Shown: positions 9,348 through 21,890 of the stretch, piece by piece
Numbering within the stretch: position 1 is the first letter of the stretch
Layout: every line of letters begins with the position of its first letter
NCBI GenBank assembly: GCA_000155715.1
Contig: DS990598.1
Coordinates: 28,481-92,480 of the forward strand
Source: a gamma proteobacterium HTCC5015
GTDB taxonomy: Bacteria > Pseudomonadota > Gammaproteobacteria > HTCC5015
Reading direction: 5' to 3'
DNA: 64,000 nt
Notes under the pieces: generated by a model
The model's database searches: none
What the model was told of the DNA's origin: nothing
The model's input: the letters and a program-made list of their open reading frames with translations, nothing else
Translations under genes and position numbers: made by a program

Positions 9348-9374
9348 AAGCCCGCCACTGGCGGGCTTTTTTTT
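9348..9374 (+). terminator. Rho-independent terminator after htpG
   Basis: Perfect stem GCCCGCC/GGCGGGC (9350-9356 with 9360-9366), three-base loop, followed by eight T residues. Confidence 0.93.
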
Positions 9375-9411
9375 GTGCGCCCACTACTTTGATGAAAGTG
9401 AGGTTGAACAA

Positions 9412-9430
9412 GTTAACGAAAATCATTATC
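9412..9430 (+). promoter_or_regulatory. Fur box upstream of the TonB-dependent receptor
   Basis: GTTAACGAAAATCATTATC matches 15 of 19 positions of the classical Fur box GATAATGATAATCATTATC. It lies 65 bases before the receptor start, where an iron-loaded repressor would block transcription. This predicts induction of the receptor and the PepSY gene under iron limitation. Confidence 0.85.
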
Positions 9431-9495
9431 ATTTGCGTTCTTTTTATGGTGCCGCCAGAGCACTTGGTATTGTATTTCTACAAAGGGTGTATGTT

Positions 9496-11595
9496 TTGAA
9501 ACGATTTAAACCATCTTTAATGACCGCAGGGCTGGCTATCGCGCTCGGTGTGAGTGTGTCTGCCCACGCGGCGGAAGAAGCGCAAGAAATTCAGCTGGGC
9601 ACCGTCAGTGTTTCTGCTGAGAAAGAGGATGCTGATCAGTCCGTGGCATATGGGAGTAGAACCGTCAATTTAGCGGGATCAGCGACTCCAGTGGCAGAGA
9701 CGCCTCGTTCGGTTAATGTTGTAGAGCGGGAGCAAATTGAAAAGCGTGGCTCGCAGTCCATCCAAGATACTTTGACCTATGCACCAGGTGTGCAAGCGGC
9801 TCCCTTTGGGTTTGACTCGCGCTTGGATTCGGCGCGTATTCGCGGAGTAAGCCCCTTGAAGTACAAGGATGGTTTTCAGTCCCTGTTTGGTTTCTACAAT
9901 AACGCGAGAACCGATATCTACACGATCGATAGTGTCGAAGTGATTAAAGGGCCTGCCTCTGTCCTGTATGGGCAGGGTGCGTTGGGCGGCGTGGTCAATG
10001 TCCGCTCAAAATTACCTGAAGACACAGCCATGCAAGAAGTGGAATTACAGTACGGAACATTTGATCGGAAGCAGCTTGGTGTAGATTCGACCGGGCCGCT
10101 CAATGAATCGGGGAGTTTACTTTACCGCGTCGTGGGCGTTTATCGCGAAAGCGATACGCAGGTTGATCATGTCAACGACGATGCGGCGATTATCATGCCT
10201 TCTGTGACATGGGCGCCGACAGAGGCGACCACTTTCACAGTGCTAGGAAATTACCAAGACAACAATGGTGGCCAGTCACTGCAATTCTTACCCAATGAAG
10301 GCACTTTGCTACCTGGGCAGCATATTGATTCCAGTACCTTCATTGGTGAGCCCGACTGGGATCGCTATGACACGCGCCGTCGCTCCTTGGCAACATTTTT
10401 TGAACATGAGCTCAATGATGGCGTCACAATAAACTTTGATTCTCGTTATACGGAAGGGGCTTCAACCTACCGTTCTCATTGGGTGGCTTACGATGGCGCC
10501 GACCCAACTATCGCTGCCGATGGCACTGTGAATCGTACGATCTACGATGCGCCGGCCACTTCAGAAGCGTTTACCAGCAAGTTGGCATTTAAAGCTGATG
10601 TGGAAACTGCGTGGGCAACCCATTTCACCCAGTTTGGAATTGACTATATAGACGCTACTACAGATACCGATACATTTTATGGTTTTGCCTCTGGCGGTCG
10701 TATTAACATTTATAACCCCGTCTATGGCAATTTGGCGCCTCGCGGAGCCATTGTCGATTCACCCGCTGATGTTGTGACTCAGATTGGTGTATTTGCGCGC
10801 GACCGAATTGCAATGGAGGACTGGACCATTTCACTCGGCGTTCGCAACGATCAGGTTGAAGAATCAACGAAAGGCACCTTGACGACTAACGCGGTGACCA
10901 CAAATGATGAATCCGCAACCACTTTTGATGTGGCGGTTATGTATCACTTTGATAGTGGTGTTTCACCGTATATGAGTTATGCGGAATCTTTTGCACCAAC
11001 CGGCAAAGACCCTGTGACTAATGAGCAACTAAAGCCCACTGAAGGTGCTCAGAAAGAAGTGGGTATCAAGTACCAACCAAAGGGTAAAGATGCTTTATAT
11101 ACCTTGGCCTATTTTGAAGTGGTGGAGGATAACCGAGTTAACGGTAGCACCTCTGTCGGTCAATCTGTGCAGCAAGGCAAAGCTGAGATTAAAGGCTTTG
11201 AGGTGGAGGTTCAAAAGCGCTGGGAAGAGTTTAAGTTAGAAGCGGGTTACAGCAAGCTTGAGGCGCTCAATAAAGATCAAAGTCCAGCCGTTCATATTGC
11301 CGCTATCGCGGATGAACAGTTCTCAGCATGGTTGGATTACGAGCCTCTCGACAGTCCATTCATCGTCGGCGCAGGTGTGCGCCATGTTGGCGAAAATTGG
11401 GATGGCACTGACACATTGAAAACGGATCCGTACACACTGTATGACGCCATGCTTGGTTACGATATTGAAAACTGGGAGTTTCGCTTAAATGGAAAAAATC
11501 TCGCTGACAAAGAGTTTGTTGCAACCACTCAAGGTGGCCGTAGTTACTACGGTGAGCGCCGAACAGTCGTTTTAACAGCCCGTACACAATTTTAA
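9496..11595 (+). CDS. TonB-dependent siderophore receptor
   Basis: This is an outer-membrane gated channel for ferric siderophores. From the TTG at 9496, eight bases after AAAGGG, the 699-residue product has a signal peptide (MKRFKPSLMTAGLAIALGVSVSAHA). A plug domain follows, with PRSVNVVEREQIEKRGSQSIQDTLTYAPGV, RGV and IDSVEVIKGPASVLYGQGALGGVVNVRSK, which is the signature of FhuA/FpvA-like siderophore receptors. A 22-strand barrel ends in an aromatic residue (VVLTARTQF), as outer-membrane proteins do. A GTG at 9487 is an alternative start. The ligand cannot be deduced. The Fur box upstream and the PepSY membrane protein downstream support an iron role. Confidence 0.92.
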   Translation: MKRFKPSLMTAGLAIALGVSVSAHAAEEAQEIQLGTVSVSAEKEDADQSVAYGSRTVNLAGSATPVAETPRSVNVVEREQIEKRGSQSIQDTLTYAPGVQAAPFGFDSRLDSARIRGVSPLKYKDGFQSLFGFYNNARTDIYTIDSVEVIKGPASVLYGQGALGGVVNVRSKLPEDTAMQEVELQYGTFDRKQLGVDSTGPLNESGSLLYRVVGVYRESDTQVDHVNDDAAIIMPSVTWAPTEATTFTVLGNYQDNNGGQSLQFLPNEGTLLPGQHIDSSTFIGEPDWDRYDTRRRSLATFFEHELNDGVTINFDSRYTEGASTYRSHWVAYDGADPTIAADGTVNRTIYDAPATSEAFTSKLAFKADVETAWATHFTQFGIDYIDATTDTDTFYGFASGGRINIYNPVYGNLAPRGAIVDSPADVVTQIGVFARDRIAMEDWTISLGVRNDQVEESTKGTLTTNAVTTNDESATTFDVAVMYHFDSGVSPYMSYAESFAPTGKDPVTNEQLKPTEGAQKEVGIKYQPKGKDALYTLAYFEVVEDNRVNGSTSVGQSVQQGKAEIKGFEVEVQKRWEEFKLEAGYSKLEALNKDQSPAVHIAAIADEQFSAWLDYEPLDSPFIVGAGVRHVGENWDGTDTLKTDPYTLYDAMLGYDIENWEFRLNGKNLADKEFVATTQGGRSYYGERRTVVLTARTQF

Positions 11596-11620
11596 ATTAA
11601 ACAAAAATATGTGAATTGAG

Positions 11621-11653
11621 AGAGGCTGCACATTACTGTGTGTGGCCTCTTTT
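11621..11653 (+). terminator. Possible terminator or attenuator between receptor and PepSY genes
   Basis: An AGAGGC/GCCTCT stem (11621-11626 with 11645-11650), extended inward by imperfect TGCACA/TGTGTG pairing, is followed by only four T residues. It lies between the receptor stop and the next ribosome binding site, so it may lower expression of the second gene rather than stop transcription fully. Confidence 0.5.
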
Positions 11654-11665
11654 GCGAGAGATAAA

Positions 11666-12763
11666 ATGAACAAGCGAACGCTGTGGAAAATACATTCGAT
11701 CATTGGTTTGATTGTGGCGGTGCCTCTACTGCTGGCTGCTATCACAGGCAGTGTACTGGTTTTCAAGCCTGAGCTGAAAGCGCTATTCACGCCCCAAGAA
11801 GTGTTGGCAGAGCCGACCGGCGAGGGGCGTCTGACTTGGGATCGCCTGCACGCCACTGTGCGTCAAGCATATCCCGAGCACCATATCGTCGGTTGGCATC
11901 GCATGGAGGATAAAGGTGAGGCCGACGAAGTCTATTTGATTGCCTATGGCGATTCCGAGTGGTTGAAAACCACGGTAGATCCCTACCGCGGTGATATTTT
12001 GGCCGAGCCCGCCGTGCACGATGATATCGGCGTCTACTTTTTCGACTGGTTAGTGGATTTTCACTACACCTACTTGATGGGGCACTTGGGCATGTTGATC
12101 GGCGGTATTGTTGCCTTGCTGCTGTGTGTTCTCGGCGTACTCGGTTTTTTCATCTATCGACAATTTTGGGTGGGCTTTTTTACCCTGCGCTGGGGCAAGA
12201 GTTGGCGCGTGTTGATGGGCGATATACACAGCCGTCTCGGCGTTCTCTCTAGTGTGGTGTTTATCGTGCTGGGATTCACTGGGGCCTATTGGAATCTCAC
12301 CCATGCGATTCCCGATATATGGAATCACGGGTTGTTTGAACACGAGGAGGCCGCTCTACCGAGTGAACCCATGTACTCACAAGATATTTCACTCAGTGCC
12401 ATGGTAGAGGACTCTCAAAAGGCCATTGAAGGCTATCGCGCCTACTATCTGTCCTTTCCCTGGGAGCCCGGGGTCGACTTTACGTTTTGGGGCGCGGTGT
12501 CCAGTGGTCACTTTCTGCGTAGCCCCTACGGCAGTACGGTGGTGTACGACCATCAAACTGGCGAGCGGAAATCGGTCAGTGACATTCGCGAGGCCAATGG
12601 TTTTTATCAAACGGTAGACACATTCTATCGACTCCACTTTGGTACGTTTGGCGGACTGACCATTAAAATCATTTGGTGTGTGTTGGGCTTTGCTCCCGCG
12701 CTACTAGCGCTATCGGGTACTTTTGTCTGGTGGAAGCGAAAGCGCAGGGGCAAGCGCGTCTAG
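11666..12763 (+). CDS. PepSY-associated transmembrane protein, probable iron-uptake partner
   Basis: The protein belongs to the PepSY_TM (PiuB-like) inner-membrane family commonly found beside siderophore receptors; some members reduce or release iron, but the role of this one is inferred. The 365-residue product starts MNKRTLWKIHSIIGLIVAVPLLLAAITGSVLVF, the standard first helix with the family's conserved histidine. It has a second helix pair around FHYTYLMGHLGMLIGGIVALLLCVLGVLGFFIY, then WRVLMGDIHSRLGVLSSVVFIVLGFTGAYWN, and a last helix ending in WWKRKRRGKRV. The chosen ATG follows GAGAGATA. Its stop TAG lies in a TAGCAGCCTGTTAG motif. Confidence 0.88.
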   Translation: MNKRTLWKIHSIIGLIVAVPLLLAAITGSVLVFKPELKALFTPQEVLAEPTGEGRLTWDRLHATVRQAYPEHHIVGWHRMEDKGEADEVYLIAYGDSEWLKTTVDPYRGDILAEPAVHDDIGVYFFDWLVDFHYTYLMGHLGMLIGGIVALLLCVLGVLGFFIYRQFWVGFFTLRWGKSWRVLMGDIHSRLGVLSSVVFIVLGFTGAYWNLTHAIPDIWNHGLFEHEEAALPSEPMYSQDISLSAMVEDSQKAIEGYRAYYLSFPWEPGVDFTFWGAVSSGHFLRSPYGSTVVYDHQTGERKSVSDIREANGFYQTVDTFYRLHFGTFGGLTIKIIWCVLGFAPALLALSGTFVWWKRKRRGKRV

Positions 12764-12804
12764 CAGCCTGTTAGTGGGTTAATCCACTCGTGTTAAAAGG
12801 GCGG

Positions 12805-13725
12805 TCAATGTGCATGGGTCGCTTTTTTGATGGCGGGCACTGCGGGCAGTTGTGGCGGCAGCCACCACAGTACCTCGCGTTGTATCGGTGTTTTGCTGGG
12901 CAGCAAAGGATTGTCGAGCTTGATAAGTCGCCTTTTAATGAGCCGAACTTGGTCAAAGGCTTTTTCATTGATGGGGTGGTTGTGAAACAACTCGTCAAAG
13001 CTGCCATCGTCTATGGCATTTTCTAGCCCTTTTTTGATGGTGTTGGCCAGCGCTTCATTGTCAGGTGCGACAAAAAAATAGTTGGCGGTTGGGTAGTAGA
13101 GTAGCAAGGTGTTCTCCACAGCAAAGTCGTATTGGTCGAGGCGTTTGATCTCTTCCCAAGGCTCGTTAAGGGCGCGCGGTACATAATCGACGCGCCCTAA
13201 GTGCAGCATGTGGAAAAGCGCTTCGTAAGAGGTGGGGGCGGCTACAGGGATGTTGTTGGCTTTTAAAATTTTTGTATCGGGCCAGTCTTGTACCTGTCCT
13301 GCTCGTAGGTTTTTCAGTTGTCGACGGTTTTTTATCTTTGAAAAACGGCCTTGCTCGCCCCGCCGTGTAATAAACACGCGAAACCCCATCAAACCTTTGA
13401 GTAAGGGGATGCGGATGGGGCGAAGCTTTTCTTCACGCTCGATGGTGGTCATCGACCACATCACAGACAGCGGGTCACTTTTGCTGAGCATCTTGATGGC
13501 GCGGTTTTGTGACAGAGGCTCTGAATAGGCTTGGAGTTTATAGTGTTGATCGCTACCGCTTTTTTTAAGGGCGAGTTGCAATAGCGAGATAAAGTAGTCG
13601 TCGCGGGAGTCCTGCTGGGTCGCTTCGGGGTAATAGAGGGTGGTTTCAGCCAGACAAGGCAGGCTGATGAGTATCGAGGCGAACAGACCGATAAGGCGGT
13701 TTTTGAGGATCCGACGCGCTTCCAT
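12805..13725 (-). CDS. Periplasmic solute-binding-like protein (SBP family 3 type)
   Basis: The 306-residue product has a signal peptide (MEARRILKNRLIGLFASILISLPCLA) and a body resembling extracellular solute-binding proteins of family 3: repeated two-lobe features and GRVDYVPRALNEPWEEI, a stretch common in the PBPb-like proteins found as single genes in marine gammaproteobacteria. No permease or ATPase gene is adjacent, so it may be a sensor-like or orphan binding protein rather than a transporter part. A GTG five codons upstream is possible but would sit inside the likely ribosome binding site. It is transcribed away from the ectoine operon; a link to ectoine is not supported. Confidence 0.75.
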   Translation of the reverse strand: MEARRILKNRLIGLFASILISLPCLAETTLYYPEATQQDSRDDYFISLLQLALKKSGSDQHYKLQAYSEPLSQNRAIKMLSKSDPLSVMWSMTTIEREEKLRPIRIPLLKGLMGFRVFITRRGEQGRFSKIKNRRQLKNLRAGQVQDWPDTKILKANNIPVAAPTSYEALFHMLHLGRVDYVPRALNEPWEEIKRLDQYDFAVENTLLLYYPTANYFFVAPDNEALANTIKKGLENAIDDGSFDELFHNHPINEKAFDQVRLIKRRLIKLDNPLLPSKTPIQREVLWWLPPQLPAVPAIKKATHAH

Positions 13726-13860
13726 TTTGTGTATTGCCACCTCTCCCGTGAGTTGGTTTTATTCGAGTATATAGTTCAAATGTCTCTCAAACGAATCGCC
13801 GGTCGGGAAAAGTGAGACGCTCAGCCCCATTTGGCGCTTTTTGTTATTCAGGAGTAGCAT

Positions 13861-15039
13861 GTGGGGATGTCATTGAATTCAAAAGCACTTTGGCAAGACG
13901 CCATTCGCCACGCCACGGACTTGCGCCATCAATTGCACCAGTCGCCCGAGTTGGGGTGGCAGGAGCGCAGTACCGCACAACTTATTCGCCAAGAGCTCGA
14001 CCGCTTAGGTATCGAGTGGCGGCCTTGCGCTGACACGGGCACAGTGGCCACCTTGGCGAGCAGCGCGGAGGGTGAGCATATCGCCCTTCGAGCCGATATT
14101 GACGCCTTGCCTATTGTGGAGAGATCGGGTGTCGCTTGGGCCTCTCAGCACGAGGGCTGTATGCACGCCTGTGGCCACGATGGACACACCGCCACGCTGT
14201 TGGCGACAGCGGCTTGGCTTAAGGCGTGTGAAACTGAGCTAAAAGGCCCAGTGACATTGCTCTTTCAGCCGGCCGAAGAGGGGGGGCACGGCGCTCAAAA
14301 GATGATCCAAGGCGGCGCGCTAGACGGCGTTGATGTCGTATTTGGTTGGCACAACTGGCCGGCCATTCCGCTGGGTAAAGCGGTCTGCCCCGATGGCTCG
14401 GTGATGGCGGGCAACGGGACTTTTCACATCGAAGTACAAGGTCTGGGAGGGCATGCGAGCCAGCCCGAACTGTGCCGAGACCCCGTGTTGGCCGCCGCGG
14501 CGATTACCGTGAATTTGCAGCAGCTAGTCAGCCGCCGCGTTGCGCCACAAAAGGCGGTTGTTGTGAGTGTCACCTCAATCGACGCGGCCAGCGGTGAGAC
14601 GATTATTCCCGATCGGGCGAAGCTGGCGGGGAGTATTCGACTCGCGGATACCCGCATGCGCGACGAGGTAGAAACACTGATCTCCGATATCGCTGAGAAA
14701 ACGGCAGCGAGTTATGGTGTGTCGGCTGAGGTTGTGCACTATCCGCGCTATGGGGCGACGGTGAATCACCCCGCTGCCGCAGAGCGCTACCGCGAGGTTT
14801 TACAGCAGGACTTAGGCGATGGGTGGATGGATGACAACACCCATATTCCGATCATGGCCTCGGAAGATTTCAGTTACTACCTCGACACCGTCCCCGGGGC
14901 ATTTGCCCTAATTGGCAGTGGCGAAGACAACAGCGAAAACCCACCTTGTCACAGCCCGCACTACGATTTTAACGACGCCCTGATTGAGCGCGTGTGCACG
15001 GCTTACTTGCGTCTTGTCGGTGCGCCTTTACCCACTTAA
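13861..15039 (+). CDS. doeB: M20-family amidohydrolase, probable N-acetyl-diaminobutyrate deacetylase (DoeB role)
   Basis: In ectoine breakdown, the N-acetyl-L-2,4-diaminobutyrate made by ectoine hydrolase must be deacetylated; this gene is the candidate for that step. The 392-residue product is a typical M20D metallopeptidase fold: LRADIDALPI, HACGHDGHTATLL (metal ligands), the glutamate pair QPAEEGGHG, the dimerisation-domain histidine GGHASQPE, and MASEDFSYYL near the end. By sequence alone it could be a hippurate or N-acyl-amino-acid hydrolase. The call rests on the three downstream genes. Some DoeB enzymes belong to a different (aspartoacylase-like) family, so this is the M20 variant. 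GTG start six bases after GGAG; an ATG two codons later is possible. Confidence 0.8.
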   Translation: MGMSLNSKALWQDAIRHATDLRHQLHQSPELGWQERSTAQLIRQELDRLGIEWRPCADTGTVATLASSAEGEHIALRADIDALPIVERSGVAWASQHEGCMHACGHDGHTATLLATAAWLKACETELKGPVTLLFQPAEEGGHGAQKMIQGGALDGVDVVFGWHNWPAIPLGKAVCPDGSVMAGNGTFHIEVQGLGGHASQPELCRDPVLAAAAITVNLQQLVSRRVAPQKAVVVSVTSIDAASGETIIPDRAKLAGSIRLADTRMRDEVETLISDIAEKTAASYGVSAEVVHYPRYGATVNHPAAAERYREVLQQDLGDGWMDDNTHIPIMASEDFSYYLDTVPGAFALIGSGEDNSENPPCHSPHYDFNDALIERVCTAYLRLVGAPLPT

Positions 15040-15191
15040 AAAATCTTAATTGATAAAACACGCCCCGCCTTTGCCGAATAAAAATAGACGGTGATATAAG
15101 CGCAATTAAGCAGTGACTAAAACGCGCTGACACAGGCGTTAGCACGGCCCATCTGTTTTTCTTTTTTTGCCTTTTTATAGGAGGGCGTCAG

Positions 15192-16466
15192 ATGCAAGTG
15201 TTTGAACAATGGGAATCTGAAATTCGCGGTTACTGCCGCGCTTATCCCACCGTCTTTAAAACCGCTTCTAACTCGCGACAAGTTGACGAAGATGGACAGT
15301 CTTATATTGACTTTTTTGCGGGGGCGGGTGTACTGAATTTTGGCCACAACAACCCCGATATGAAGCGTGCGCTGATTGAGTATATCGAGTCAGACGGTGT
15401 CGCCCACAGTTTGGATATGTACACGACGCCTAAGCGCGAGTTTATTGAAGCCTTTGTCGACACCGTGCTCAAACCGCGCGGCTGGAACTACAAAATGCAG
15501 TTCATGGGACCCACGGGAACCAATGCGGTCGAAGCGGCACTCAAGCTCGCTCGCCGCTCGACGGGCCGTCGAACAGTGGTGGCCTTTACCCATGGGTTTC
15601 ATGGAATGACACTGGGCTCGCTGGCCTGTACAGCAAATGCGGCATTCCGCAATGCGGCGGGCGTGCCTTTGGAGAATGTCGTTCGAGCGCCCTTTGATCT
15701 CGAAGCGCTCGAAGCGGGCACGCAGCAGGATGCTCTGAATGCCGTGGCGCAAATGCGCGAGCAGTTTCTCGACACCTCCAGCGGCTTGGAGGCGCCCGCT
15801 GCGTTTATGGTGGAAGCGATTCAAGCGGAGGGCGGCGTGCACGTCGCCAGCGAGCCTTGGCTCAAAGCGGTTCAGGATTTGGCTCATGAGCTAGGCGCGC
15901 TGTTTATCATTGATGACATTCAAGCGGGTTGTGGCCGAACGGGCCAATACTTTAGTTTTGACGGCATGGACCTCGACCCAGACATTATCTGTTTGGCCAA
16001 GGGTATTGGTGGCTTCGGTACGCCGTTGGCCATGAATTTGAATAAACCTGAACACGATCAACACTGGAATCCCGGCGAGCACACGGGGACGTTCCGCGGC
16101 CAGAACTTTTCGTTTATTGCAGGGCGAGAAGGCCTGCGTTATTTCGAAAATGACGAGCTGATGAAAAGCACATTGAAAAAGGGCGAAACCATTCGAACAG
16201 TGCTTGATGAATTGGCCTCTGAGTTTAGTCAGCACGGTTTTACCGTGCGCGGCAAAGGCATGATGCAAGCGATTGATCTAAAAGACGGCGCGCTTTCAAA
16301 AGCCATTGCCAAAGCGTGCTTTGAAAATAGCCTGTTGGTCGGCCCCTGTGGTACGGGCGGGCGCGTGATTAAGTTTATTCCGCCACTGACCATTCCCGAT
16401 GAAGATTTAGACGAAGGTTTAACCATCTTTAAACAGCAATTTTCCACTGTCGTCGGCCAAGCGTAG
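15192..16466 (+). CDS. doeD: Diaminobutyrate--2-oxoglutarate transaminase (DoeD, EctB-like)
   Basis: This enzyme converts L-2,4-diaminobutyrate to aspartate semialdehyde with 2-oxoglutarate as amino acceptor, using PLP. The 424-residue class III aminotransferase closely resembles EctB: FFAGAGVLNFGHNNP, LKPRGWNYKMQFMGPTGTNAVEAALKLAR, FTHGFHGMTLG, the Asp of IIDDIQAGCGRTG, and the PLP lysine in CLAKGIGGFG (Lys270). AGGAGG stands at normal distance before the ATG. Because ectA and ectC are absent while a hydrolase and a dehydrogenase follow, the catabolic role is preferred over ectoine synthesis. A 150-base gap separates it from doeB. Confidence 0.9.
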   Translation: MQVFEQWESEIRGYCRAYPTVFKTASNSRQVDEDGQSYIDFFAGAGVLNFGHNNPDMKRALIEYIESDGVAHSLDMYTTPKREFIEAFVDTVLKPRGWNYKMQFMGPTGTNAVEAALKLARRSTGRRTVVAFTHGFHGMTLGSLACTANAAFRNAAGVPLENVVRAPFDLEALEAGTQQDALNAVAQMREQFLDTSSGLEAPAAFMVEAIQAEGGVHVASEPWLKAVQDLAHELGALFIIDDIQAGCGRTGQYFSFDGMDLDPDIICLAKGIGGFGTPLAMNLNKPEHDQHWNPGEHTGTFRGQNFSFIAGREGLRYFENDELMKSTLKKGETIRTVLDELASEFSQHGFTVRGKGMMQAIDLKDGALSKAIAKACFENSLLVGPCGTGGRVIKFIPPLTIPDEDLDEGLTIFKQQFSTVVGQA

Positions 16467-16476
16467 GAGGTGTGTC

Positions 16477-17754
16477 ATGAGACAACGCGATGATATGACC
16501 TTTCCCATTGAGGAATACGAGCGCCGCTTAGCGGATTTGCGTCAGCGTATGGAGTACCGCCTGCTCGATGCGGTGGTGATTACCGATCCCGAAAACTTGA
16601 TGTATCTCACCGATTATCAAACCACGGGCTACTCTTTCTTTCAGGCGCTGGTTGTACCGCTGGAGGGCGAACCCTTTATGATTACGCGCAACATGGAGGA
16701 GTCCAATATCCATGCGCGCACTTGGGTCGAGTTAACGCGACCCTATCCCGATACTGGCGATGCGATTCAAATGTTGGTTCAAAGCCTGCGCGAATTCGGC
16801 TTGGAAAATAAGAGTATTGGCTACGAGCGCAATAGCTACTTTTTCCCTGCCTATCATCAGGACTATATCCACACCACGTTTACGGATGGTCAATTGCTGG
16901 ATTGTTTTGGCATTGTCGAAGCGGGCCGCATTCGAAAATCCAAAGCCGAGATCGAGATTATGAAGCGCGCGGCCCTCGCCACAGAGGAAGGCATGAAAGC
17001 GGGTTACGAAGTGATCAAGGCCGGTGTAACGGAGAATGAAATTGGTGCGGCGATCAGCGCTGCAATGTTCCGCGCCGGGGGTGAGCCGCCTGCGGTTATG
17101 CCCTATGTCACCTCGGGGCCGCGCAGTATGATTGGTCACGCCACATGGGAAGGCCGTACCGTGCAAGATGGCGAGCACGTCTTTCTCGAGGTGGGCGGCT
17201 GCTATCGCCGCTACCACACGGCCATGATGCGCACGGTGATTGTCGGTGAATTGAGCGAGAGTATGTACAAAGCTCAAGAGCGTATGAAAATGGCATTGAA
17301 CGAAGTGAAGCGGGCCATGCGTCCCGGTTTGACGGTGTCTGATGCCGACAACATTGTACGCAAGATCATTACCGAAAATGATGTCGGCGCACGCCTGATC
17401 ACTCGTTCGGGGTACTCGATTGGCATCGCCTTTCCCCCGAGTTGGGATGAGGGTTATATCATCAGTCTCAAGCAGGGCGAATCTGCGGTGTTAGAAGAGG
17501 GAATGACTTTCCACATTATCCCGTGGATGTGGGGTGTCGATGGCGATAAAACCTGTGGCATTTCCGATACGGTGTATATCACTGAAAATGGTTGTAAGTC
17601 GTTCTTTGAACTCGATGAAGATTTCGTCTGTAAACCCGATGCCGCCGTGGAAGGTTATCGCAATACAGAGCCGACCCCGATTACAAAATCGACAAAATCC
17701 AAAGCCTCGGCTAAGGGGGCCGAGGCCCAGTCATCCTCGGGAGGAGAAGCGTGA
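16477..17754 (+). CDS. doeA: Ectoine hydrolase (DoeA)
   Basis: DoeA opens the ectoine ring to N-acetyl-diaminobutyrate. The 425-residue product has the creatinase N-terminal domain (DAVVITDPENLMYLTDYQTTGYSFFQALVV) and an M24 'pita-bread' C-terminal domain (AGRIRKSKAEIEIMKRAA, then GVTENEIGAAISAAMFRAGGE, HVFLEVGGCYRRYHTAMMRT, EEGMTFHIIPWMWGVDG). These segments match what I know of ectoine hydrolases, and the usual methionine aminopeptidase metal ligands are not all present. The C-terminal tail after residue 400 is low-complexity (Lys, Ser, Ala). It sits ten bases after doeD with an AGGAGG site and overlaps doeC. Confidence 0.9.
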   Translation: MRQRDDMTFPIEEYERRLADLRQRMEYRLLDAVVITDPENLMYLTDYQTTGYSFFQALVVPLEGEPFMITRNMEESNIHARTWVELTRPYPDTGDAIQMLVQSLREFGLENKSIGYERNSYFFPAYHQDYIHTTFTDGQLLDCFGIVEAGRIRKSKAEIEIMKRAALATEEGMKAGYEVIKAGVTENEIGAAISAAMFRAGGEPPAVMPYVTSGPRSMIGHATWEGRTVQDGEHVFLEVGGCYRRYHTAMMRTVIVGELSESMYKAQERMKMALNEVKRAMRPGLTVSDADNIVRKIITENDVGARLITRSGYSIGIAFPPSWDEGYIISLKQGESAVLEEGMTFHIIPWMWGVDGDKTCGISDTVYITENGCKSFFELDEDFVCKPDAAVEGYRNTEPTPITKSTKSKASAKGAEAQSSSGGEA

Positions 17755-19136
17755 TGTTGACGGTTATCGATCCCAGTAACGGCGAAGTGATTCGCGAAGT
17801 GCCAGGGCTCAATGCAGCGCAGCGCGATGCTGTGATTGCACGAGCCGACGAAGCGTATTGCGATTGGAAAACTCATAGCTTTAGTCAGAGAGCGGCTGTA
17901 TTAAAAGCAGTGGCTCAGGCGATGAGAGAAGACCGTGAGCGATTGGCTTTGCTCATGACGGAAGAAATGGGCAAGCCGATTAAAGAGGCGCGCGGTGAAG
18001 TGGACAAGGCATGCTGGTGTGCCGAGCACTACGCCGAACACGCAGAAGCCTATCTCGAGCGCGAAGTGATTGAGTCCGACGCGACACTCAGTTACGTACA
18101 GCACTTGCCCATTGGTGTCGTTCTCGGAATTTTGCCGTGGAACGCGCCGTTTTGGCTGGCGTTTCGTTTTTGCGCACCTGCGCTTATGGCAGGCAATACC
18201 TGCGTGATGAAACACGACCCCCATGTACCCGGTTGCGCTGCCGCGATTGGCGAAGTGTTTGAAAAAGTGACGCAGGCTATGGGCGTGCCCGTTGGTATTT
18301 TTCAAAATCTGCCCTTGGAGACGCCCGAGGTCGAAGGGGCGATCAGAAACCAACACGTGCAAGCCGTGTCTTTTACCGGATCGACGCGAGGTGGTAGCGC
18401 CGTGGCGGCTATCGCTGCCTCAGAGATCAAGCATGCCGTACTTGAACTCGGTGGTTCTGACCCTTGTATTGTGCTAGCAGACGCCAATCTCGATGAGGCG
18501 GCAGATATCATTACCCTGTCTCGCATTATCAACGCGGGCCAATCTTGTATTGCCGCCAAGCGGATTATTGTCGAAGCCTCGGTTTACGATGAAATGGTAG
18601 CGAAACTGGAAGCGCGTTTAGCGCGTTTGACCATGGGCGACCCCCGCGAGGAAAGCACCGATGTGGGGCCGATTGCGCGCTCGGATTTACGCGATGAACT
18701 CGACCGCCAAGTCCAAGCCACCAAACAATCGGGTGCAAGATGCCTCCTCGGTGGAGAGTTGCCAGAGGGAGCGGGCTATTTTTACCCCGTAACCTTGTTA
18801 ACCGATGTGACGCCCGATATGGCCGCCGCTTGCGAAGAAACCTTTGGGCCCGTTGCGGTTGTGATGAAAGTGGAGGATGAGGCCCAAGCGATTGCCCTCG
18901 CCAATGCCACGCCCTACGGGTTGGCGTCGAGTGTGTGGACATCACGTAAAAGAGGTGAAGCCATTGCTGCACGCATCGAAGCGGGCCAAGTTTCGGTCAA
19001 CGGCATTGTGAAAACCGATCCCCGTTTGCCCAGTGGCGGTATTAAACGCTCGGGTATTGGTCGCGAGCTCGGTTCCCACGGCATTAAAGAGTTTGTCAAC
19101 GCTCAACAAGTGTGGGTAGGGCCCAAGAAAGCCTAA
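17754..19136 (+). CDS. doeC: Aldehyde dehydrogenase, probable aspartate-semialdehyde dehydrogenase (DoeC)
   Basis: The last step of ectoine catabolism oxidises aspartate semialdehyde to aspartate. The 460-residue NAD(P)-dependent ALDH has ILPWNAPFW, the Rossmann motif FTGSTRGG, the general base in LELGGSDP (Glu231) and the catalytic cysteine in NAGQSCIAAKR (Cys265). Sequence alone would fit succinate-semialdehyde dehydrogenase (GabD-like); the operon position points to DoeC. The start at 17754 shares its first base with the doeA stop; GTG at 17751 is an alternative. Confidence 0.87.
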   Translation: MLTVIDPSNGEVIREVPGLNAAQRDAVIARADEAYCDWKTHSFSQRAAVLKAVAQAMREDRERLALLMTEEMGKPIKEARGEVDKACWCAEHYAEHAEAYLEREVIESDATLSYVQHLPIGVVLGILPWNAPFWLAFRFCAPALMAGNTCVMKHDPHVPGCAAAIGEVFEKVTQAMGVPVGIFQNLPLETPEVEGAIRNQHVQAVSFTGSTRGGSAVAAIAASEIKHAVLELGGSDPCIVLADANLDEAADIITLSRIINAGQSCIAAKRIIVEASVYDEMVAKLEARLARLTMGDPREESTDVGPIARSDLRDELDRQVQATKQSGARCLLGGELPEGAGYFYPVTLLTDVTPDMAAACEETFGPVAVVMKVEDEAQAIALANATPYGLASSVWTSRKRGEAIAARIEAGQVSVNGIVKTDPRLPSGGIKRSGIGRELGSHGIKEFVNAQQVWVGPKKA

Positions 19137-19471
19137 GCACACCAAAATTTGGGCCCGCAAGGCGGATGTTCTCAGAACTTCCGCCGCGCCCGACTCGTGG
19201 CGGCCGTTATTCCAAACTTGATTGGGAACCTCCATAGCAAGAAGCGATATTGAATCGCCCTCTGTAGGAGCCTGCCCAGCAGGCGAATGTGTACGGCTTC
19301 GCCTAAGCTAATTGAATATTGGGAGTGCCCCCGACGGGGCAGTGACTTTCTTCAACGAAAAAAGTCACCAAGCTCAGAATGTCTCCCAGATGCCACACCC
19401 TTTGGTTCCCTGCGCTTGTCGGTGAGGCATATGGGTTAAACAGTGGTCACTCCAATAATGGATTAAGATGT
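19137..19471. repeat. Gene-free gap with REP-like and other palindromic repeats
   Basis: No gene is supported. A REP-like element lies at about 19264-19290 (TGTAGGAGCCTGCCCAGCAG). A partial GTTATTCCAAACTTGATTGGGAA repeat lies near 19207, and CGACGGGGCAGTGACTTTC follows near 19333. There is no clear terminator for the doe operon; the repeats may serve as one. Confidence 0.55.
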
Positions 19472-20032
19472 TTACCAGTTTTTACACGGCCCATTATTTT
19501 TAAACATCTTGTAAGCGCTGATTAAGTTGACTGCTAGGCGTACTTCTTCAAATGAATCGGTTCCTCGGTTTTCTATATAAGATCCAAAAGATGCGTTGAA
19601 TGCGCAGAGAGTGAAGGAGATATCAATACCGCTGTATTGTGTATTGGGTTGTATATCGGTGGCCCATTGATTACTTTCAATATGGGCATAGCTGATGGAT
19701 GCACCTACATTTTCCTCATAAGTACCCAATCCAATAGTTTGCTTTTGGCCGAACTGGCCATCTTCAAGTTTAAGTATGATTTGGCGGGGTGGTGTATTTT
19801 TGTATTTCTCAACCGGTATGGCAGCACCGACTCCCCAGCCATCACCTAATTTATTCGATGTTCCATAATTAGCGATAGGAACAAAAAAATCGGTGGTAGT
19901 TAATTTCTTGCTAGATTGGGTCGCCTTCTCGGTAGTTTGTTCTCTTGTGGGCTTAGCCTCCTCGGCTTTTGCCGGGTTGAGAAGGCTTATACCGAGTGTT
20001 AAGGCAATAGTGAAATCGATAATTTTTTTCAT
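19472..20032 (-). CDS. Exported protein of unknown function in the pspA operon
   Basis: I do not recognise a family. The 186-residue product has a signal peptide (MKKIIDFTIALTLGISLLNPAKA), a Lys/Thr-rich linker, then a beta-rich segment (TTDFFVPIANYG, GDGWGVGAAIPVEKY, IILKLEDGQFGQKQTIGLG, VGASISYAHIES). Cysteines occur only near the end (SFTLCAFNASFG, NNGPCKNW), where they could form a disulfide. Its start overlaps the pspA stop (ATGA), so it is cotranslated with the envelope-stress gene and plausibly acts on the periplasmic side. It is more AT-rich than its neighbours. Confidence 0.75.
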   Translation of the reverse strand: MKKIIDFTIALTLGISLLNPAKAEEAKPTREQTTEKATQSSKKLTTTDFFVPIANYGTSNKLGDGWGVGAAIPVEKYKNTPPRQIILKLEDGQFGQKQTIGLGTYEENVGASISYAHIESNQWATDIQPNTQYSGIDISFTLCAFNASFGSYIENRGTDSFEEVRLAVNLISAYKMFKNNGPCKNW

Positions 20033-20715
20033 GCCTCATCACCCTTTAACCGCTTTAACACCACTTGGGCATCGTGTTGTTGGCGGATGCCTTTGCTGAC
20101 GAGTGCGTCGTGCAGTGGCTTGTCTGATAGTGTGTTTTCTATGTCGTTGAAAGCTTCGTGGTAATCGTCTTGGCGCGATTGTCTCGCTTTGATGTCAGAT
20201 AGAGTCTGATCGAGTTCTCCAAGTGAATGTCCCAAATGGCGGGTGCGACCTCGAAGGTGTTGTAAGGTCGATTGTGCGCAATCGTTCGCTTTGGCCAGAT
20301 TTAGCTCGCGGCGATACTTTTGAATGCTGTGTATGGCATCGCGCAGCTGTTGTTTGAGCTGTACCTCCTGCCGACCTAGTCGCTCGATGTGTTGAGCCTG
20401 TTCTTGCATGAGATTTTCATCATCGGCAATGGTGTTAGCGAGAGACTCGGCCAGTGTGGTTTCACCTTGTCGAAGTGCGGCCTTAGCTTCATCGCAGTGT
20501 TTTTGATTGTTGGTGGTCAGTGTTTCCTGCGATCGCTCCAGTTGCTTTTTCTCCGACATCACAGTGGCCAGTTGCCGCTTGGCGATATGGACGGATTGTT
20601 CGGCATCGCGTATTTCCTGTTCAAAGATACGCAACGATTGCTGGTTGACCACGCCTTCGGCAGACTCGTGAATGCGGGCGCGAAATAGTGTATTGAGTTT
20701 TGTCCACACGCTCAT
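20029..20715 (-). CDS. PspA/IM30-family phage-shock-like protein
   Basis: PspA-type proteins coat damaged inner membrane and preserve proton-motive force. The 228-residue product is almost entirely coiled coil, with the family's amphipathic N-terminus (MSVWTKLNTLFRARIHESAEGVVNQQSLRIFEQEIRDAE) and the ESCRT-III-like helical hairpin. It is not the classical PspABC arrangement: no PspB, PspC or PspF is nearby. Instead a YiaAB-like membrane protein precedes it and an exported protein follows, all on the minus strand. Confidence is high for the family and lower for phage-shock function. Confidence 0.85.
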   Translation of the reverse strand: MSVWTKLNTLFRARIHESAEGVVNQQSLRIFEQEIRDAEQSVHIAKRQLATVMSEKKQLERSQETLTTNNQKHCDEAKAALRQGETTLAESLANTIADDENLMQEQAQHIERLGRQEVQLKQQLRDAIHSIQKYRRELNLAKANDCAQSTLQHLRGRTRHLGHSLGELDQTLSDIKARQSRQDDYHEAFNDIENTLSDKPLHDALVSKGIRQQHDAQVVLKRLKGDEA

Positions 20716-20717
20716 GA

Positions 20718-20987
20718 TTACTCTCCGTACTCTTTGATGAGTTGTTGGGTTTTGGCTTCGGAGATTTTGTTGTAAATACGTTGGTTCTCGTGCTCGTCAC
20801 GCATGGTTTTTGACAGTGTGATGGTGGTACTGACCAAGAACAGAGATGAAATGCCGAGGTAGCCTTTAACCAGTAGATCCGCAGGCCCAAAAAGAATACC
20901 TGCGCCCATCGCGGCGATAGCAATGCCAAACGAAATTTTGACGAAGAAAACCCAACTCGCCGAATTGCTCTGTGATGTCTCAATCAT
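20718..20987 (-). CDS. Small YiaA/YiaB-like inner-membrane protein
   Basis: The 89-residue product has two predicted membrane helices (WVFFVKISFGIAIAAMGAGILFG and LLVKGYLGISSLFLVSTTITLSKT) and a charged tail (RDEHENQRIYNKISEAKTQQLIKEYGE). This is the layout of the YiaAB two-helix family, often found beside PspA homologues. It is first in the minus-strand operon, two bases from pspA. It may be the membrane partner of the PspA-like protein. Confidence 0.8.
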   Translation of the reverse strand: MIETSQSNSASWVFFVKISFGIAIAAMGAGILFGPADLLVKGYLGISSLFLVSTTITLSKTMRDEHENQRIYNKISEAKTQQLIKEYGE

Positions 20988-21048
20988 TTTGAAATCCTTG
21001 CTGTGTGTGTTGATTTAAATAACGAGGCCAGTCTTTCAAAAAACACAA

Positions 21049-21113
21049 TAACTGCAACGAAAGACGAAGAAGTTGCAGTTAAATCGACATAAGGTATTAA
21101 AAACTGATACCTT
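21049..21113. promoter_or_regulatory. Two perfect inverted repeats in the divergent pspA/XRE promoter region
   Basis: TAACTGCAAC (21049-21058) is repeated in reverse complement as GTTGCAGTTA (21072-21081) across 13 bases. AAGGTAT (21091-21097) pairs with ATACCTT (21107-21113) across 9 bases. Both lie in the 132-base gap between the yiaAB-like gene and the XRE regulator, the second ending six bases before the regulator's ATG. They are good candidates for operators of that regulator. Confidence 0.65.
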
Positions 21114-21119
21114 TGGGCC

Positions 21120-21890
21120 ATGGCACAGACAAGCGTAATGGTGGACGAGTTAAAAAAGGCGCTGCGAGAGGCGGGTGTGAGTTACGCCCAAGTGGCGCAG
21201 GGGCTGGGTTTGTCCGAGGCCAGCGTTAAGCGTTTGTTTTCCCAGCGGCAATTCACGATGGAGCGCTTTGAGGCCTGCTGTGATATGGCGGGGCTGGGCT
21301 TGGGGGATTTGATTCGTCGCGTGGAAAGTGCCCAGTACATCGGTGGCTTATCTTGGCAGCAGGAAACCGAATTGGTGAGCGATCCCAAGTTGTTGGTCGT
21401 GGCAACCTCGGCGATAAATCGCTGGAGCTACGATGAAATATTGGCCACTTATGAGATCAAAGACAGTGAGCTGATTCGCTATCTCGCTTGGCTTGATCGA
21501 ATGCATTTAATTGAGTTCTTGCCGGGTAACCGTATCAAGCCATTGATTACCAGTGACTTTTCTTGGCAGAAGGGTGGCCCGATTCAGCAGTATTTTGAGG
21601 CCCAGGTGCAAAGCGATTTTTTTCAATGTCGTTTTGATCGGCCCGGGGAGCTTCGGCTGTTTGTTACGGGCATGCTGTCGCCTCAATCTAACGAGCGTGT
21701 TCAGCGCCGCATGCAGCGTTTGGCACAAGAGTTTCGGCACGCACATCAAGAAGATTTAAACGAGCCTCTACACAATCGCTATGGTACGAGTATGGTGATG
21801 GCCATGCGCCCGTGGGAGTTGGATGTATTTCGCAAAATGCGTCGCCCCGGCAAAGAAAAAGTTTATTCGAATCACAAGGCAAAAGGGTAA
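21120..21890 (+). CDS. XRE-family transcriptional regulator
   Basis: The 256-residue protein has an N-terminal helix-turn-helix (residues about 7-60: LKKALREAGVSYAQVAQGLGLSEASVKRLFSQRQFTMERFEACCDMAGL) and a roughly 190-residue C-terminal region of unknown ligand that resembles the effector part of other gammaproteobacterial XRE regulators. It faces the pspA-like operon across 132 bases and is nine bases from the hydrolase gene behind it. No ribosome binding site is seen before the ATG at 21120 or the next one at 21138, so it may be poorly or leaderlessly translated. Control of the divergent operon is inference. Confidence 0.82.
   Translation: MAQTSVMVDELKKALREAGVSYAQVAQGLGLSEASVKRLFSQRQFTMERFEACCDMAGLGLGDLIRRVESAQYIGGLSWQQETELVSDPKLLVVATSAINRWSYDEILATYEIKDSELIRYLAWLDRMHLIEFLPGNRIKPLITSDFSWQKGGPIQQYFEAQVQSDFFQCRFDRPGELRLFVTGMLSPQSNERVQRRMQRLAQEFRHAHQEDLNEPLHNRYGTSMVMAMRPWELDVFRKMRRPGKEKVYSNHKAKG

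Follow-up and report, generated by a model that had tools for sequence, protein, structure and literature searches.

The window examined here is a 64,000-nucleotide (nt) stretch of contig DS990598.1 from the gamma proteobacterium HTCC5015, which carries four ectoine degradation genes in the order doeB-doeD-doeA-doeC. This doeBDAC operon is a clear new example, from another lineage, of an operon type already published, built on the DoeA_2 form of the hydrolase and the DoeB2 form of the deacetylase, and it is ordinary for its kind. Through such operons, salt-adapted producers of this protective solute probably degrade their own ectoine to aspartate and acetate. We consider it probable (about 0.78) that the operon chiefly recycles the carbon and nitrogen of ectoine that the cell has made itself. 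Our own observations concern which genes are present and in what order, the families and active-site residues of their products, and how often they co-occur with ectoine synthesis. What is new in this work is how closely the operon type is tied to ectoine synthesis and, in loci other than the window, an apparent doe-linked promoter element.

Identity of the four proteins

The four open reading frames (ORFs) all lie on the forward strand, at exactly the coordinates given in the initial annotation (Table 1), with gaps of 152 nt between doeB and doeD, 10 nt between doeD and doeA, and -4 nt (an overlap) between doeA and doeC. This order on a single strand is what characterizes doeBDAC operons of the DoeA_2/DoeB2 type, and the family models agree with it.

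DoeA scored 788.9 bits with the DoeA_2 model NF038259 (cut-off 575) and fell short of the classical EutD/DoeA model TIGR02993 (196.8 versus 613). Its M24 and Creatinase_N domains would also suit an ordinary M24 peptidase or prolidase, an identity that we regard as having almost no chance of being correct, given that the DoeA_2 cut-off is passed and that the five M24 metal ligands, D, D, H, E, and E in ordinary members, are replaced by E, A, Y, I, and S (the third and fourth residues being taken one column beside the marked alignment column). The ligands are lost in 8 of 8 DoeA_2 proteins. All 15 EutD proteins have lost them too, at identical alignment columns, whereas all three M24 controls keep them. 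EutD is not known to need a metal. The window protein is only 26-31% identical to these 15 EutD-type sequences, but it shares with them the ligand loss and the RYH, GY, and PP-W-E motifs. Since its best solved relatives are the ectoine hydrolase structures 6twk and 6twj (155.9 bits, versus 100.7 for Xaa-Pro dipeptidase), and since the metal site is lost as in EutD, DoeA does not group with other M24 hydrolases; such a grouping would have spoken against the initial annotation.

The M20 enzyme that had been proposed in place of an aspartoacylase-like DoeB is likewise confirmed: the protein contains Peptidase_M20 and M20_dimer domains and reaches 665.8 bits with the DoeB2 model NF038260 (NCBIfam; cut-off 550), while remaining below the CpsA equivalog cut-off (306.8 versus 500). 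Residues C104, H106, E139, E140, H164, and H364 are invariant in all 63 aligned sequences, window included. They agree in alignments with the metal-site residues of solved M20D amidohydrolases, with which DoeB2 shares its sequence family (the IAA-amino acid hydrolase ILL2, 1xmb, and YxeP, 1ysj), and we take them to be metal-binding or catalytic here as well. M20D enzymes have wide specificities, and an AspA-like M14 protein is encoded beside the ectABC genes of the host (L112:4870-5991), so one could imagine that the M20 enzyme is a mere neighbor acting on another amide, such as an acyl amino acid, and that an M14 enzyme elsewhere performs the deacetylation. We find this very improbable. The M14 protein scores 84.6 with the DoeB model TIGR02994, against a cut-off of 402.7, and no other gene of the host genome than that in the window matches the DoeB2 model. 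An M20 gene also stands upstream of doeD at 66 of 80 related loci (the best 80 of 237 found in a scan of named genomes were fetched), and a methanotroph doeB mutant accumulates the expected substrate, N-alpha-acetyl-diaminobutyrate appearing after osmotic down-shock (PMC7192451).

DoeD exceeds the cut-off of the diaminobutyrate transaminase model PRK09264 (604.9 versus 438) and remains just short of that of the EctB model TIGR02407 (533.9 versus 552.2). It is 44% identical to the separate EctB of the host, and is thus predicted to be a diaminobutyrate transaminase distinct from EctB. Such a distance is in line with a paralog running in the reverse direction, as the deletion of doeD in a methanotroph suggests. 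DoeC matches the Aldedh family (PF00171, 470.5 bits) and owes its name to its position in the operon and its likeness to the gene found in the same place at all 80 related loci, where a doeC match of 57-73% identity follows doeA, cut by a contig end in some cases.

The families support the proposal that the four enzymes together convert ectoine to aspartate. Without a metal, DoeA would open the ring of ectoine to yield N-alpha-acetyl-L-2,4-diaminobutyrate, DoeB2, as an M20 metalloenzyme, would remove the acetate, DoeD would transaminate diaminobutyrate to aspartate semialdehyde, and DoeC would oxidize the latter to aspartate. We infer these reactions, and the physiology discussed below, from published work on methanotrophs.

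Comparison with published ectoine degradation clusters

The doeBDAC arrangement was described in Methylotuvimicrobium alcaliphilum 20Z and in most ectoine-making methylotrophs as a cluster without EnuR, an AsnC/Lrp gene, or transporters (Reshetnikov 2020, PMC7192451). It has also been reported in the heterotroph Marinobacterium ramblicola, which has the synthesis pathway as well (PMC8398569), and in saline-lake metagenomes (PMC12174138).

The window shares with the operons of Methylotuvimicrobium and Methylophaga the gene order, the single direction, and the absence of a linked regulator or importer; it differs from them in belonging to another lineage and in its doeB-doeD gap of 152 nt. Best-segment identities to the locus of M. 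buryatense (L069) are 64% for DoeB, 72% for DoeD, 77% for DoeA, and 68% for DoeC, and to ten Methylophaga loci 61-62, 57-61, 75-83, and 59-64%, respectively. As in the window, DoeD of M. buryatense lies over the cut-off of PRK09264 and under that of TIGR02407. Because its DoeB2 (654.0 bits) and DoeA_2 (789.4 bits) both exceed their cut-offs, the published operon type very probably includes the M20 deacetylase, judging from this congener of M. alcaliphilum.

A scan of ten ORFs from the region 9373-21890 identified no member of the Lrp, GntR, TRAP, or ABC families, in agreement with the claim that no regulator or ectoine importer adjoins the operon. The gene order, the M20 enzyme, and this lack of linked partners, which the initial annotation had singled out, are all usual for the published operon type.

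The same four reactions are inferred for the window as for the classical systems, doeABX-doeCD of Halomonas elongata and eutDE of Ruegeria pomeroyi, but three features of these systems are missing from it: a hydrolase above the TIGR02993 cut-off, an M14 DoeB in the cluster, and a linked EnuR or AsnC. DoeB of H. elongata is described as an aspartoacylase-like M14 enzyme, whereas that of the window is of the M20 family, and the classical clusters are described with a linked DoeX/AsnC, EnuR, and often importers, none of which is found beside the window operon. In one survey, EutD-type clusters were linked to enuR in 456 of 539 cases and to asnC in 494 of 539 (PMC5924519).

Ectoine synthesis and possible import in the host

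The host assembly (2.63 Mb in 30 contigs, 98.9% complete) contains an ectA-ectB-ectC-ask locus (L112) with a divergent MarR-family gene beside it, the same synthesis arrangement as in the doeBDAC host M. alcaliphilum. EctA, EctB, and EctC exceed their cut-offs and the Ask protein is just short of its own (526.3 versus 536). The gene content and the closest relatives of the operon also point to a gammaproteobacterial host. A genome search also retrieved one BCCT protein, which is over the family model TIGR00842 but does not reach the cut-off of the equivalog for glycine-betaine BCCT proteins (497.7 versus 650), and three DctM-type matches (L115, L116, and a weaker one, L117), the first accompanied by a DctP gene; OpuAC had no match in the genome. 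The BCCT and DctM-type proteins are possible importers, and family scores do not discriminate between their potential substrates. Genes are therefore present for both routes envisaged in the initial annotation, that is, turnover of internally made ectoine or uptake encoded elsewhere: the search that it had suggested for ectABC was successful, while the search for an importer returned candidates only.

No GntR-type helix-turn-helix match was obtained in the host genome, although such a match exists in 12 of the 14 genomes used as controls, and therefore we see no MocR-type EnuR. The only AsnC/Lrp-type gene (C30:195401-195628) is on the same contig as the operon, more than 100 kb beyond the window.

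Two further features of the synthesis locus were recorded. A perfect 12-bp inverted repeat with arms 102 nt apart (L112:6553-6678), located between ectA and the MarR gene that diverges from it, is a candidate operator. On the MarR-gene side of ectABC (L112:1020-5991) are two RimK-like ATP-grasp genes and genes for a CorA-like protein, an MscS-like channel, and the AspA-like M14 protein; apart from the last, these names were assigned by eye from the translations. In osmotic terms, the proximity of a mechanosensitive channel to ectoine synthesis may be of interest.

Association of DoeA_2 with ectoine synthesis

We searched 369 genomes of the class for both types of hydrolase, at E values up to 1e-120, and for EctC, which is present in 50 of them. 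DoeA_2 was found in 12 genomes, every one of which has EctC; EutD was found in 19, and 13 of these have EctC; and no genome contains both hydrolases at this threshold. These overlaps were counted by eye, and the 12 genomes include that of the window and related ones, as well as one (G319) whose gene is in two pieces on two contigs and under the curated cut-off. The link between DoeA_2 and EctC is strong against the background (Fisher p = 1e-11), and the difference from EutD (12/12 versus 13/19) gives a one-sided Fisher p of 0.037, both values being uncorrected for kinship. As EctC occurs in 6 of the 8 EutD genomes that pass the curated cut-off, the contrast within the class is modest. Among 50 named DoeA_2 genomes (those of the 80 loci nearest to the query), 46 have EctC, and the four that lack it (L052, L055, L057, and L067) are labelled as metagenome-assembled genomes (MAG).

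This co-occurrence favors recycling of self-made ectoine. In a non-exhaustive search of open-licence literature, we did not find the link to producers stated as a rule beyond methylotrophs.

The published mutants point the same way. In M. alcaliphilum, doeA and doeB act in ectoine breakdown, and the methanotroph doeA expressed in E. coli yields the alpha isomer only (PMC7192451). When ectD-ectR is removed from this species, deletion of doeA stops the loss of ectoine and deletion of doeD nearly does, with a slight late loss, and doe transcripts fall modestly, 0.64- to 0.77-fold, on additional nitrate; in an engineered methanotroph, deletion of doeA prevented ectoine loss and raised the maximum titer up to 1.2-fold (PMC11067125). 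By analogy, the host of the window would recover carbon and nitrogen from its own ectoine when salinity falls or nitrogen is short, under the control of factors encoded elsewhere.

The same enzymes might instead serve mainly to consume outside ectoine, taken up through a BCCT or TRAP transporter that is encoded apart from the operon. The BCCT gene and the three DctM-type loci of the host would permit this, and M. alcaliphilum can import ectoine although no importer is linked to its operon (PMC7192451). We nonetheless judge nutrient scavenging unlikely, because the operon lacks the linked importer and the EnuR/AsnC-type regulator that accompany most EutD-type clusters, and because DoeA_2 genomes are nearly all producers, compared with 100 of 539 EutD-type consumers (PMC5924519). 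Besides these uptake possibilities, several points weigh against our main reading. On the published side, most of the recombinant DoeA and DoeB was insoluble, and no assay of pure DoeB was made; the doeA mutant in a wild-type background contained only slightly more ectoine (0.13 versus 0.11 and 9.1 versus 8.9 mg/g), and a clear effect was seen only when ectABC was overexpressed, at 1% NaCl (1.55 versus 0.58) (PMC7192451). In the window, DoeD reaches no equivalog cut-off, and DoeC reaches no NCBIfam cut-off among the best 25 of its 44 matches.

Distribution and genomic surroundings

The 66 loci with the DoeB2-doeD-doeA-doeC order comprise 64 intact ones, L032, in which doeB is in two pieces, and L039, which ends inside doeC. 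At the other 14, doeD-doeA-doeC occurs without an adjacent DoeB2: 11 are from Actinomycetota (L062, L066, L073, L074, L081, L084, L090, L091, L097, L103, and L107), two from Natronospirillum (L040 and L044), and one is cut by a contig end. Among the 40 largest clusters of neighbor proteins at the 80 loci, which were built from longest ORFs, some of them called on the wrong strand, and named by eye, no regulator or importer recurs except through synteny within a lineage, e.g. a TetR gene in seven Methylophaga loci. Using the EctR, EctA, EctC, Ask, Lrp, BCCT, DctM, and DctP proteins of the host as queries, we found BCCT at one and DctM at two of the 80 loci, in a search that distant relatives would escape.

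Closer to the host, DoeB2 does not exceed its cut-off in any of the other 142 genomes of relatives, nor does DoeA_2 in the three other genomes of the same family, two of which are 63 and 73% complete. EctC and DoeA_2 are both missing from two of these family genomes, G001 (given as 100% complete) and G003 (73%). The DoeA tree contains no well-supported clade that includes the window.

Next to the operon, the ORF adjoining doeB (Table 1) has a sub-threshold SBP_bac_3 hit as its sole family match and no relative of solved structure in the PDB at E values up to 10. An Rfam search of positions 12700-20100 returned nothing up to E 1.

Table 1 Features of the doeBDAC operon and its flanks in the window.
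Feature	Coordinates	Strand	Assignment
doeB2	13861..15039	+	M20-family N-alpha-acetyl-L-2,4-diaminobutyrate deacetylase, predicted; start GTG 13861 or ATG 13867
doeD	15192..16466	+	class III L-2,4-diaminobutyrate aminotransferase, EctB-like, by sequence
doeA (DoeA_2)	16477..17754	+	predicted ectoine hydrolase, M24 fold without the M24 metal ligands
doeC	17751..19136	+	aldehyde dehydrogenase, presumed aspartate-semialdehyde dehydrogenase
Secreted-looking ORF	12805-13740	-	divergent, adjoins doeB; SBP_bac_3 E 0.011 (sub-threshold)
Left flank			htpG (named by eye from translation), TonB siderophore receptor, PepSY_TM protein
Right flank			small ORF, PspA-like protein, helix-turn-helix protein, esterase (named by eye from translation)

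Regions upstream of doeB

A k-mer footprint of the 250 nt upstream of doeB at 62 loci (63 regions with the window) revealed the element TGGAACA-N4-TTGC in 13 of 63 regions, always in the sense orientation and at a distance of 74-158 nt from doeB (L034, L036, L042, L045, L048, L051, L053, L059, L064, L079, L092, L096, and L109). All 13 occurrences are upstream of doeB, and neither strand of the 80 loci (1.28 Mb) contains any further copy, although the test is not blind given that the element was derived from the same regions. The carriers are Methylophaga, Gilvimarinus, and L109. The DoeA tree has two main halves, and all the carriers fall in the one that does not contain the window. The element fits the sigma-54 -24/-12 consensus, and equally a sigma-70 -35 box with a TAGTAT-like -10 box, seen by eye, at 17-18 nt. 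In these lineages it appears to be genuinely linked to doe, and it is open to both readings. Scored with the sigma-54 consensus, 18 of 63 regions reach at least 10 bits on the sense strand, versus 5 on the other strand, and 9 of 63 have a shuffle p below 0.01.

The element does not account for the window, which lacks TGGAACA-N4-TTGC and has the lowest sigma-54 score of the 63 regions (0.1). Four doeB upstream regions of the Methylotuvimicrobium type, which the start-codon filter left outside the footprint set, showed no clear site when read by eye. Sites matching the NtrC consensus were not enriched (0.49 per kb upstream, versus 0.47 in whole loci). EctR-like control was also rejected, as one arm of the 12-bp MarR-ectA repeat, used as the query, has no match upstream of doeB; in the window as a whole, this arm has 5 matches at up to two mismatches, versus 4.4 expected. 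Between positions 12700 and 19600, neither promoters (1 found versus 4.2 expected from shuffles) nor terminators (10 versus 8.9) stand out. The window has no recognizable operator or promoter.

In five Methylophaga loci (L034, L036, L042, L051, and L079), the palindrome TAGACCAGTCGTCTA also occurs upstream of doeB, close to genes assigned by eye to TetR and to an old-yellow-enzyme-like protein. It resembles a NemR operator and is probably unrelated to doe.

Implications for the proposed recycling of ectoine

We propose, with even odds of being right, that operons of the DoeA_2/DoeB2 type form a separate, producer-bound branch of ectoine degradation, which drains self-made ectoine irreversibly and responds to signals from elsewhere in the genome, as opposed to the inducible EutDE branch acting on outside ectoine. 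In this branch, the hydrolase would release the alpha isomer only, leaving no re-entry to EctC, and osmotic or nitrogen signals would govern the flux; in Methylophaga and Gilvimarinus, control might pass through the doe-specific promoter element that resembles a sigma-54 site.

For the field, the gain is a longer list of hosts for the published operon and a sharper division between recycling and scavenging. Ectoine is a widespread solute and a commercial product, and an operon type tied to its synthesis helps to predict which ectoine producers destroy their own ectoine.

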